Origin: Rhodospirillaceae bacterium
GTDB taxonomy: Bacteria > Pseudomonadota > Alphaproteobacteria > Rhodospirillales > JABHCV01
Assembly (NCBI GenBank): GCA_018662005.1
Contig: JABJHA010000027.1
Span: forward strand, 1-64,000
DNA length: 64,000 nucleotides
Reading direction: 5' to 3'
The notes under the pieces are model-generated. The model saw nothing but the letters and a program-made list of their open reading frames with translations. It ran no database searches and was not told the DNA's origin. Shown here piece by piece: positions 44,921-60,342 of the stretch (within the stretch, counting starts at the first letter, position 1; every line of letters begins with the position of its first letter). The position numbers were made by a program, and so were the translations under genes.

Positions 44921-46087
44921 ATGACCAAGAATTCGACACAAAAACTGGTGCTGATGACGGGAATCTCTTTGAGCGTCCTGTTGGCGATGACACTGCTTAT
45001 GGAAAGCGACGCGCGCGCCCTGTTGTTTGTCATCGGGCTGGTCATGGGTGTTTCGCTTTATCACGGGGCGTTCGGTTTTACCGGCGCTTATCGAAAGCTT
45101 TTGAGTGAACGCGACATGACCGGTGTTGCCGCCCAGATGGTGATGCTGGTCGCGGCGATGCTTTTATTCGCACCAGTGCTGGCCCAGGGCAGTGCATTCG
45201 GGCACGGAGTCTCCGGGGCGGTGGCGCCGGTTGGCGTGGCCGTCGGCTTCGGTGCGTTTTTGTTCGGCGTCGGTATGCAGCTTGGCAGTGGTTGCGCCTC
45301 TGGTGTGCTGTATACCGCTGGCGGCGGCAACATCAGGGCCTTTCTGGTGCTGGTGTTCTTCTGTCTTGGGGCATTCTGGGGCAGCCTTGATTTGGGCTGG
45401 TGGCAGCAATTGCCGCAAACAGGCGGCATCTCGCTGGCTCGCACCTTTGGTTGGGAAATTGCCCTGCCCCTGCAAATTGGCGCACTGGTTCTGATTTTTT
45501 TGAGCCTGCGCATGGCCGGTTGGACCCTGCGACCGATAAATCGGTGGCAAGACGGCTTTTCGATTTCCGCCCTGCTTAGGGGGCCGTGGCCGTTGATCCT
45601 CAGCGCCCTGATGCTGGCCCTGCTCAACTGGGCGACGTTACTCGTCGCCGGTCACGCTTGGTCAATCACCTGGGCGTTTAGCCTGTGGGCCGCCAAAACC
45701 GCCGTCCTGTTCGGTTGGGACCCCGCCACCAGCGCCTTCTGGAGCGGTGGCTTCCAACAGGCCGCCTTGGCCCGATCGGTGCTTTCGGACACCACCTCGA
45801 TCATGAACATCGCCATCCTGATAGGGGCGATGCTGGCCGCTGCCCTGGCCGGATCATTTTACAAGCCCCTGCCCCGGGGAAACAGGCCTTTGCTGGCTGC
45901 CATTCTGGCCGGTTTGCTGATGGGTTACGGGGCGCGATTATCATATGGCTGCAACATCGGTGCTTTTTTCAGCGGCGTCGCCTCGACCAGTCTGCACGGC
46001 TGGCTGTGGATTGCCTGCGCCCTGCCCGGAAACTGGCTTGGCATCGCCCTGCGAAAACCGTTCCGCATGGATGTGGCCCCGGCATGA
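44921..46087 (+). CDS. YeeE/YedE family sulfur-compound transporter
   Basis: A 388-residue inner membrane protein with about ten spans. Signature elements are LFGVGMQLGSGCASGVLYTAGGGN and, in the second half, GYGARLSYGCNIGAFFSG and GWLWIACALPGNWLG; quoted pieces are under 20 residues. The cysteine in each repeat lies at the constriction of the thiosulfate transporter of this family, so transport of thiosulfate or a related sulfur compound is likely. It is 59 bases after the cytochrome gene and 20 before the next secreted protein. Its neighbours encode very cysteine-rich proteins, which fits a need for sulfur. Confidence 0.87.
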   Translation: MTKNSTQKLVLMTGISLSVLLAMTLLMESDARALLFVIGLVMGVSLYHGAFGFTGAYRKLLSERDMTGVAAQMVMLVAAMLLFAPVLAQGSAFGHGVSGAVAPVGVAVGFGAFLFGVGMQLGSGCASGVLYTAGGGNIRAFLVLVFFCLGAFWGSLDLGWWQQLPQTGGISLARTFGWEIALPLQIGALVLIFLSLRMAGWTLRPINRWQDGFSISALLRGPWPLILSALMLALLNWATLLVAGHAWSITWAFSLWAAKTAVLFGWDPATSAFWSGGFQQAALARSVLSDTTSIMNIAILIGAMLAAALAGSFYKPLPRGNRPLLAAILAGLLMGYGARLSYGCNIGAFFSGVASTSLHGWLWIACALPGNWLGIALRKPFRMDVAPA

Positions 46088-46107: not shown

Positions 46108-46569
46108 ATGAAACGTCTGTTCATCCTCGGTGCTGTTCTCACCGCCCCACTGATCACGCCCACAGTCCAGGCTGCCCAGCTTGTTGAATTGTCGCAAGCT
46201 CCCTGTCAGTTCCTCGATATTGAGGTTGACCACGGCTTTAAATCCACCGCCAAGGCCGATTGCGATGCGATCAACGCCAAGACGACCACACAGCGTTTGC
46301 AATCTGCCAAGGTTATGGAACTGAAAGCCGGCGACTATGTGTTTCGGGTCGGCAACAAAAATGTTCCCTACGAACTTGGTTTCTGGCTTAGGGAAAAAGA
46401 CTACGACTGGCGCAATCCCATACACAAGTTGACCAAAATCAGCGTTTCAGGCGGTGGCCTGACGACCGGTAAAAGCCGCGATTACGAAGTCACCCTGAAG
46501 CCCGGGGAATACCTGTATTCCTGCCCCCTTAATACGACCCCTGATTATCGGCTGGTGGTAACAAAGTAA
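46108..46569 (+). CDS. Secreted protein of unknown function
   Basis: A 153-residue protein with a signal peptide (RLFILGAVLTAPLI, cut near VQA). The start ATG at 46108 is preceded by ACGGAG. The mature part is beta-rich, with an early Cys in APCQF, a second in KADCDA and a third in YLYSCPLNTT. KPGEYLYSC resembles a loop of cupredoxins, but the copper-binding histidines are missing, so I do not call it one. The 3' end overlaps the convergent SUMF1-like gene by 41 bases. Its place after yeeE suggests co-transcription. Confidence 0.68.
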   Translation: MKRLFILGAVLTAPLITPTVQAAQLVELSQAPCQFLDIEVDHGFKSTAKADCDAINAKTTTQRLQSAKVMELKAGDYVFRVGNKNVPYELGFWLREKDYDWRNPIHKLTKISVSGGGLTTGKSRDYEVTLKPGEYLYSCPLNTTPDYRLVVTK

Positions 46570-47425
46570 CCAGCCGGAAGCCAATCAGAATGTGTTTGAT
46601 GGATGCGGGCCGGGAATGACGGGCGGCGGGACGGCAAATGCCGCAGCCCTTGTCATCCCAAGAACCGCCCTTGACCATAAAACGCCCGTTTCCGACGGCT
46701 TCGCTCGTCCATTCAAAAACCTGACCGCCGGCATCAAGCATCCCATATGGGCTGGCGCCATTGTCAAAGTTGCCAACGGGCACGGTATCAAAGGGCCCCT
46801 GATCGTGTGAGTTCAGACGCGCCGGATCAAAGTCATCTCCCCATGGGAAGCGCCGTCCGTCAGTTCCGCGGGCCGCCTTTTCCCATTCCGCCTCGCCGGG
46901 CAATCGCCACAATTGCCCGGTCTTGTTGCTGAGCCAGCGAGCATAGGTGCGCGCGTCGGCGTGGCTGACCAGCACCACCGGATGGTGCTCTCTGCCCGGT
47001 GGCGGGGTTTTCCCCTGCCAGGAAAATTTCCGGGTCCGTCCGAATGGATGGATCAAGCCGTATCCGGCCCATGTTGCTGCATCGACACCAGGCGGCGGAT
47101 ATCCGCTTTCCCTGACAAAAATCGCGTAAGCGGCGTTGCTGATCACATTTCGGGTGATGGCGAAGGCGGCGCTGTATGTGCTGTTTCTTGTCTCTTCGTT
47201 TTCATACCAACGCCCCTTGCGGGTGGCGCTATGACCATAGGCTTCCTCGTCCAGCGCGTATGCCGCTTGCCGTTCGGCGCGGTCCGAACCTTTGATGAAC
47301 GAACCGGCGGCGATGGTGATGGTTTTGGGTGCGGCGAATTCCTGCCCCCTGGCCGGGCCGGAAATGGGCAACACAAAGACCATCATGACAAAGAATATTG
47401 CCAGCCTGCTTGCAAATAAATTCAT
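46529..47425 (-). CDS. Exported SUMF1/formylglycine-generating enzyme-like protein
   Basis: A 298-residue protein with a signal peptide (IFFVMMVFVLPISG, cut near PARGQ) and a SUMF1/PvdO-type domain: YGLIHPFGRTRKFSW, HPVVLVSHADARTYARWLS, RLPGEAEWEKAARG, FPWGDDFD, FEWTSEAVG and MVKGGSWDD. True formylglycine enzymes have a Cys-x4-Cys pair just after KGGS; here the aligned stretch reads KGGSWDDKGCGICRPAAR with C261 and C264, so classical activity is uncertain. The family also includes periplasmic enzymes that modify other substrates. It is divergent from the CNPC-repeat cytochrome gene, about 145 bases away. Confidence 0.82.
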   Translation of the reverse strand: MNLFASRLAIFFVMMVFVLPISGPARGQEFAAPKTITIAAGSFIKGSDRAERQAAYALDEEAYGHSATRKGRWYENEETRNSTYSAAFAITRNVISNAAYAIFVRESGYPPPGVDAATWAGYGLIHPFGRTRKFSWQGKTPPPGREHHPVVLVSHADARTYARWLSNKTGQLWRLPGEAEWEKAARGTDGRRFPWGDDFDPARLNSHDQGPFDTVPVGNFDNGASPYGMLDAGGQVFEWTSEAVGNGRFMVKGGSWDDKGCGICRPAARHSRPASIKHILIGFRLVTLLPPADNQGSY

Positions 47426-47570: not shown

Positions 47571-48485
47571 GTGAAATCCCTTGAAGTGAAGCTGTTGTCT
47601 TCTACTGTTTTGCCAATCCTTTTTGGTGGCGGTTTTGTTTTAGGCGGCGCCCTTGTCGCACCGCAACCGGTACAGGCAGGCACGCCGGGCCTTGGCAATC
47701 TTAATCCTCCGGCGATTTCACGCGCCCAGGCCAATTTGTTGCATAAAACGGCATCGTGTAGTCCCTGTAATCCCTGCAATCCGTGTGCGGCAAAGAAAAA
47801 TCCGTGCAACCCGTGTAATCCCTGCGCAGCCAAGAACCCGTGCAATCCCTGTAACCCGTGTGCTGCCAAGAAAAACCCTTGTAACCCGTGCAATCCCTGT
47901 AATCCGTGTGCGGCCAAAAATAATCCGTGCAACCCGTGTGGCGCAAATACGTGTGGCGCCAATCCATGTGGCGCAAATGTCGACCCCAAGCTCGTCGTCC
48001 GTCCAAAAGGAACCATGTTGCACACGGGTGATACGACGGCACTTGTTCGTGAAGGTAAAAAGCTTTTCATGGACAACAAGCTGTCGACCAATGACATGTC
48101 CTGTCAGACATGCCACGAGGGTCTTGAGGCCTTTGAAAAGTCTTTTGCCAAACCCTTCCCGCACCAGGTTGCGATGGCTCAGGACACCAGTGGCATCAGT
48201 TCCGTTTCTTTGGATGAAATGGTTCAGTTCTGCATGGTCGTCCCCATGGAAGCTAAACCACTAGCCTGGGACTCACGCGAATTGGCGGCCATTACCGCCT
48301 ATACCGCAACCTTGCAGCAAGCCTATATCGCCAGGGGAGCAAATCCCTGCAATCCGTGCAACCCGTGTGCGGCCAAGAAAAACCCCTGCAATCCCTGTAA
48401 TCCATGTGCGGCAAAAAATCCCTGTAATCCATGTAATCCGTGTGCGGCAAAGAAAAACCCCTGCAACCCGTGCGCGGCAAATTAA
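47571..48485 (+). CDS. Exported cytochrome c with long CNPC repeat tracts on both sides
   Basis: A 304-residue protein. The signal peptide ([18 protein letters not shown], cut near VQA) is followed at about 63-143 by repeats of [10 protein letters not shown] and variants, with 18 cysteines. A single heme domain has CQTCH at 178-182 and resembles SoxA-like cytochromes in [18 protein letters not shown], then ELAAITAY. A second CNPC tract, with 11 cysteines, fills residues 258-304. About 32 cysteines occur in all. The start is the GTG at 47571, because AGGAGG (47557-47562) lies 8 bases before it; the GTG at 47565 is too close. Codons within the repeats differ, so the protein pattern is kept by selection. 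Confidence 0.85.
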
Positions 48486-48526
48486 TCCCTTGAAACTCCT
48501 CGATAGAACCTGAAATGGAAACGAAA

Positions 48527-48823
48527 ATGTTTAAAACAAAACTCACCACCACTGCCCTCAGCCTAGCTCTTTTGACCGGCGTTGGCGCCGCCATCACCAT
48601 GACCCCGGCACAGGCCGCATCAGACATTCAACTGGCCGCTGCCGGTTGTTCAAAATGTAATCCGTGTGCAGCCAAGAACCCCTGCTGCCCACAACATCCC
48701 TGCAATCCTTGCAATCCGTGCGCTGCCAAGAAAAACAATCCCTGCAACCCGTGTGCGGCCAAGAACCCCTGCAATCCCTGCAACCCGTGCGCTGCTAAGA
48801 AAAACCCGTGTGCGGCGAATTAA
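48527..48823 (+). CDS. Small exported CNPC-repeat protein
   Basis: A 98-residue protein. The signal peptide ([19 protein letters not shown], cut near AQA) is followed by a mature part made almost wholly of CNPC, CNPCAAK and related units, with about 14 cysteines in roughly 65 residues. There is no heme motif and no charge-rich tail. I chose the ATG at 48527, with GGAAACG ahead; an ATG at 48515 would add four residues. It follows the heme protein with the same repeat and is ended by the terminator at 48861. It probably binds metal, or forms a disulfide-linked or extended structure; none of this is shown. Confidence 0.8.
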
Positions 48824-60277: not shown

Positions 60278-60342
60278 CCGTGCCGCAAAGTCCCCTTGCC
60301 GTGCCGCAAAGTCCCCCTTGCCGTGCCGCAAAGTCTCCCTTG
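60278..60342. repeat. Three tandem 21-22-bp repeats
   Basis: Three copies lie end to end: 60278-60298 (21 bases), 60299-60320 (22) and 60321-60342 (22). All share CCGTGCCGCAAAGTC and end CTTG, and they differ at one or two C/T positions. They lie in the 194-base gap between the receiver gene and yejA, which start divergently. No gene is seen in that gap, and the repeat is not CRISPR-like. Confidence 0.9.

Follow-up and report, generated by a model that had tools for sequence, protein, structure and literature searches.

Exported CNPC-repeat proteins, one with a SoxA/TsdA-type haem domain, and their DUF6969 and FGE-like neighbours

The repeat genes and their surroundings

The window, the whole 64,000-nucleotide stretch of Rhodospirillaceae DNA analysed here, encodes two adjacent cysteine-repeat proteins, P1 and P2, which lie among the following features.

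44921..46087, + strand: Sulf_transp (YeeE/YedE) membrane protein
46108..46569, + strand: cupredoxin-like small exported protein, from a sub-threshold profile match; no classic Cu ligands
46529..47425, - strand: exported FGE-like protein (PF03781), divergent from P1, with an invariant GSWDDxGCGxCR motif (C261, C264)
47571..48485, + strand: P1, exported, 304 aa, with a signal peptide (to about 47678), an N-terminal Cys tract, a single-haem SoxA-like domain and a C-terminal Cys tract
47757..47978, + strand: N-terminal CNPC tract of P1
47985..48341, + strand: SoxA/TsdA-type cytochrome c domain of P1, by PF21342, PDB profile and Foldseek
48102-48116, + strand: CxxCH of P1
48231-48233, + strand: Cys221 of P1, the invariant candidate haem ligand
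48348..48482, + strand: C-terminal CNPC tract of P1
48515..48823, + strand: P2, a small exported CNPC protein of 102 aa
48856..48893, + strand: hairpin and T-run after P2
48939..49646, + strand: DUF6969 (PF22308), 235 aa, no signal peptide

P1 begins at GTG 47571, with AGGAGG 8 nt before it, and P2 follows on the same strand after a gap of 29 nt; the start of P2 may be ATG 48527 instead of 48515, because an equivalent Met opens the P2 relatives. Export of both proteins, as an earlier note on this DNA had proposed, is borne out by the Sec-like signal peptides predicted at their N-termini (ending PVQA before G in P1 and AQA before A in P2). Both are built of [10 protein letters not shown] units, with a Cys spacing of 3 inside runs and AAK-type linkers between the runs. 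P1 holds 32 Cys, 17 CNPC and 26 NPC; P2 holds 14 Cys, 6 CNPC and 10 NPC. The earlier counts of about 32 and 14 Cys proved exact, and both reading frames are real. A CxxCH occurs once in P1 and not at all in P2. In the AlphaFold model the N-terminal tract of P1 is predicted to be disordered (pLDDT 34-41) beside a well-folded haem domain.

The repeat is not a fresh duplication, and on this point too the earlier note was right. No two of nine units are identical at the nucleotide level, and their mean nucleotide identity is 0.835, against 0.824 +/- 0.012 for randomly drawn synonymous codons. Since synonymous sites between units are thus randomised or saturated, the repeat must be old and its protein pattern selected and maintained; recent tandem duplication as its origin is ruled out. 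Elsewhere in the window, at 60278-60342, there is a 22-bp tandem repeat in 3 copies (95% match).

The hairpin downstream of P2 (-22.6 kcal/mol, z -3.8) probably ends transcription of the P1-P2 unit; a scan for consensus promoters and terminators missed it. Because this hairpin stands between P2 and DUF6969, and the FGE-like gene is divergent, the partners are linked by neighbourhood and not necessarily by a single transcript.

The haem domain

By profile and by predicted structure, the haem domain of P1 is a single-haem member of the SoxA/TsdA Cys-ligated family. All 41 of the members tested match PF21342 (SoxA-TsdA; best 1.4e-14), the best PDB profile match is SoxA 1h31 (E 2.4e-7), and the top 12 Foldseek matches are all TsdA or SoxA at a probability of 0.98-1.00, with E values of 0.005-0.14 for a query that was the whole, partly disordered P1 model. 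The cytochrome c domain proposed earlier is therefore a haem domain, as claimed, of this particular family and not a generic cytochrome c; it is this assignment that leads us to rank a thiol or sulfur role above generic electron-transfer contacts.

The CxxCH and C221 are invariant in 58 of 58 members, and C221, which aligns with the Cys of SoxA INACRTSRM, is a candidate ligand of the haem. Enzymes of the SoxA family use the haem Cys to join thiosulfate to a thiolate (PMC4423706). In P1 the positions of the TsdA active-site residues Arg119 and Ser127, counted ungapped from the Cys, are occupied by Met (C-4) and Pro (C+4). These replacements, and one CxxCH against two haems in TsdA, set P1 apart from TsdA thiosulfate dehydrogenase as an enzyme; given the Met and Pro, P1 may act on a substrate other than thiosulfate.

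Relatives and partner genes

The earlier note had suggested searching other genomes for CNPC proteins. Scanning a genome collection with P1 as query returned 118 relatives, so the repeat is not absent from all relatives; 80 loci were kept, 81 with the window. They span Alpha-, Beta-, Gamma- and Zetaproteobacteria, SAR324, Nitrospirae, Methylomirabilota and Entotheonella, many of the carriers coming from marine, groundwater and sediment samples; loci in Sneathiella, Denitrobaculum and Pelagibius are among those recovered. No further CNPC locus was found in the window's own genome. Together the 81 loci contain 1042 Cys-Cys spacings of 3 and 874 CNPC. Counting the window, 58 of them encode a SoxA-like haem domain, which in nearly every case has a tract on either side, so that the flanking arrangement first noticed in P1 is general among these relatives; three lack the C-terminal tract. 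In another 17, mostly alphaproteobacterial, the haem domain is P460-like and the tract N-terminal (against the curated cut-off of PF16694, 7 of 10 fall above, 2 just under, and 1 gave no match), and small haem-free CNPC ORFs occur in 45 loci. CNPC-type proteins at L072, L077, L080, L093 and L112 have RR (Tat-like) signal regions, with a lipobox in three; Tat-like signals there would imply folding or loading in the cytoplasm before export.

DUF6969 is the commonest neighbour of CNPC genes. It is encoded in 65 of the 81 CNPC genomes, at the CNPC locus in 49 and elsewhere in 16. Among 385 genomes of the class it is found in 44 of the 47 with CNPC proteins versus 46 of the 338 others (OR 93, p 6e-29, without phylogenetic correction; both are found in 24 families). 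CNPC and DUF6969 genes share one contig in 35 genomes, and in 31 of these their starts lie within 3 kb. An alignment of DUF6969 proteins has as its invariant set H57, D65, H75, H77, E81, H84, H86, H118, N137 and R191. The predicted model is confident, and a search for PDB relatives gave nothing useful by sequence, a best E of 0.41 with Foldseek and a best Z of 4.8 over 68 residues with VIA. To judge from this model, DUF6969 appears to be without a recognised fold, and a missing structural match does not prove a new one.

The repeats found with DUF6969 are not confined to CNPC. We read, with wider flanks, 20 DUF6969 loci chosen for having no CNPC match, and 10 contained another exported Cys-repeat ORF; the DUF6969-linked repeats comprise CNPC, CGAC, KCGAK, NPCAA, SPCAPA and CCAAEG. 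No Cys-repeat ORF was found in a 533 kb background of locus flanks, in which strong CNPC ORFs are masked by construction. At one locus (L138:7931-8975) DUF6969 lies beside a small ORF that resembles a lipoprotein and is made of CCAAEG repeats, with 13 Cys in 98 aa. On two Azospirillum plasmids (L164, L165) DUF6969 lies beside an Mla-type lipid transporter, and no Cys-repeat ORF was found within 6 kb. Conversely, DUF6969 is missing from 16 of the 81 CNPC genomes, 10 of which have a multihaem c554-like protein (5-6 CxxCH) adjoining the CNPC genes. The c554-like loci are L011, L016, L027, L033-L036, L045, L059, L060 and L063, all but L011 without DUF6969; the copy in L035 is cut off.

The FGE-like protein matches PF03781 at E 1.7e-39, and its PDB profile matches are FGE, SUMF2, PvdO and EgtB; its invariant GCGxC is reached by none of the FGE PDB alignments shown. 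Its DNA pattern was found in 31 of the 385 genomes, all within the 90 that encode DUF6969. The FGE-cluster gene of several Gallionella-type loci is a different, EgtB-like one near a SAM-methyltransferase-like gene, and was left out of the count for this subtype. FGE acts on the sequence CxPxR. Recognition of the CxP in CNPC is an unneeded explanation, since several DUF6969-linked repeats (CGAC, KCGAK, CCAAEG) have no Pro.

Other neighbours recur as well, some of them linked to sulfur. Homologues of the Sulf_transp protein occur in 23 of the 81 CNPC loci, as does DUF302, and homologues of the cupredoxin-like protein, which has a conserved Cys and no classic copper loop, occur in 20. In Acidithiobacillia soxA and soxB have a DUF302 gene between them (PMC5037610). 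Most Gallionella-type loci have thioredoxin and DsbD/CcdA-type genes beside the CNPC gene, and the window's own genome encodes two SoxY. At L133:4723-8248 a divergent DUF6969 stands side by side with genes for an exported rhodanese-like protein and a Sulf_transp protein and with an exported ORF of SPCAPA repeats.

Function and comparison with known systems

The reading we favour, with a probability of roughly 0.42, is an exported system of polythiol redox chemistry that handles sulfur, in which P1 and P2 are the effectors and are served by dedicated partners. The disordered CNPC tracts would display rows of vicinal thiols, and the Cys-ligated haem of P1 would take electrons from the thiols of the tract or make S-S bonds on them. 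Reduced sulfur (sulfane sulfur, thiosulfate or polysulfide) could be loaded on the tract, its electrons passing to c-type cytochromes, with P2 acting as a diffusible carrier of a CNPC tract. DUF6969, which is cytoplasmic and looks like an enzyme, would mature or service the Cys repeats together with the exported FGE-like protein. These two proteins, which the earlier note does not mention, are the strongest clue that the system is a dedicated one. The analysis establishes the repeat, the haem family, the partners and their linkage; the thiol-to-haem chemistry, sulfur as cargo, Cys ligation of the haem and the roles of both partners are inferred. The haem family, the invariance of C221, the sulfur-linked neighbours, the thioredoxin and DsbD genes, the L133 locus, the two SoxY, the association of CNPC with DUF6969 and the confinement of the FGE-like pattern to DUF6969 genomes all speak for this reading. 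Against it stand the 17 loci in which the haem domain is P460-like, of a different fold; the 16 genomes without DUF6969, 10 of them with a multihaem c protein instead; the occurrence of DUF6969 where no Cys repeat is detectable; and the apparent Met and Pro at the TsdA positions.

It is the Sulf_transp and DUF302 neighbours, taken with the SoxA-type haem, that lead us to favour periplasmic thiol and sulfur redox chemistry, with metal buffering as its main rival. In that alternative, which seems to us rather unlikely, the tracts would be exported to chelate Cu(I), Zn, Cd or Hg, much as metallothioneins or bufferins do, and the haem protein and the FGE-like protein would control whether the thiols, or the copper, are oxidised or reduced. 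A very high density of vicinal Cys in disordered tracts is what such a chelator would offer, and an exported Cys peptide with a dedicated partner is the bufferin design; a Buf1, Cytochrom_C and FGE-sulfatase fusion has been reported among bufferins, for which a copper role has been proposed (PMC12452194). ECF sigma genes, which adjoin many beta- and gammaproteobacterial CNPC loci, and a DUF3379 gene, which adjoins a few, are also consistent with it. However, no metal exporter recurs among the main clusters of CNPC neighbours, and chelation gives no reason for the SoxA-type or P460 haem domains. Nor is the MNIO enzyme of bufferins associated: MNIO (PF05114) was not found in the window's own genome, shows no association with CNPC in the 385 genomes (OR 0.8, p 0.63) and occurs in only 3 of the 16 CNPC genomes without DUF6969. 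We therefore reject membership of the MNIO-type bufferins, even though P1 and P2 share one trait of bufferins and oxazolins, an exported Cys-repeat precursor with signal peptide and repeats, built on another motif.

Peptide modification independent of MNIO is less probable again, and we consider it unlikely as the primary explanation. DUF6969 would be a maturase that oxidises or heterocyclises the tract Cys before export, the exported FGE-like protein would perform a second step, and the product would be a metallophore or a redox cofactor. FGEs oxidise Cys, and the invariant GCGxC of the FGE-like protein fits such a step, as do the conserved His, Asp, Glu and Arg of DUF6969, its confident model, for which no PDB match was found, and its occurrence with chemically similar Cys repeats that are built differently. 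The genomes in which either CNPC or DUF6969 stands without the other count against it, any catalytic residue or metal of DUF6969 is putative, and this reading overlaps with both sulfur redox chemistry and metal buffering without excluding them. We also entertain, as an idea with the odds against it, that DUF6969 represents an enzyme class of which no member was known before, one that modifies or loads the Cys repeats of exported proteins without MNIO. Together with the FGE-like protein it would then make up a maturation system of wide occurrence, yielding haem-tethered, sulfur- or metal-handling polythiols. The extended electron transfer or disulfide-linked assemblies of the earlier note, with tracts tethering or cross-linking cytochromes into a periplasmic or surface network, found no specific support and are very improbable: the multihaem c554-like neighbours and the lipoprotein-like character of some relatives would suit them, but P2-type proteins are haem-free, and DUF6969, the FGE-like protein and the sulfur-linked genes are left unexplained.

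If the polythiol redox reading is right, the locus belongs to a periplasmic system that is widespread and, it appears, not yet described. Its Cys-repeat proteins are joined to redox haem domains of two unrelated kinds, and it would add a new kind of thiol chemistry to the handling of sulfur or metals by bacteria of marine, groundwater and sediment samples. That CNPC-haem proteins almost always occur with a partner of no recognised fold suggests undescribed sulfur or metal handling outside the cell membrane, and the CNPC system offers a direct test of the role of DUF6969. A search limited to the open-access literature found no mention of CNPCNPC or DUF6969, and nothing that connects a Cys-rich repeat to P460, FGE or Gallionella.

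With SoxA and TsdA (PF21342) the P1 domain shares its fold, the CxxCH, an invariant Cys at the ligand position and a periplasmic location; it differs in having one haem only, flanked by Cys tracts, and apparently in the residues at the Arg119 and Ser127 offsets of TsdA. Cytochrome P460 (PF16694) supplies the haem domain of 17 relatives, with a C-terminal CxxCH and the Cys tract at the N terminus; P1 itself has no P460 domain. The FGE-like neighbour has the domain of the FGE superfamily, but it is exported and its Cys are spaced GCGxC after GGSW, a spacing that we take to differ from the copper-site motif of FGE. Metallothioneins resemble the CNPC proteins in their high Cys content and vicinal thiols, whereas the CNPC proteins are exported, made of repeated units and haem-tethered. 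Bufferins and oxazolins, which are MNIO-modified exported RiPPs, are likewise low-complexity Cys peptides that are exported by Sec and have a dedicated gene for an intracellular partner; theirs are the EGKCG or Buf1/Buf2 motifs with MNIO, and here the pairing is CNPC with DUF6969.
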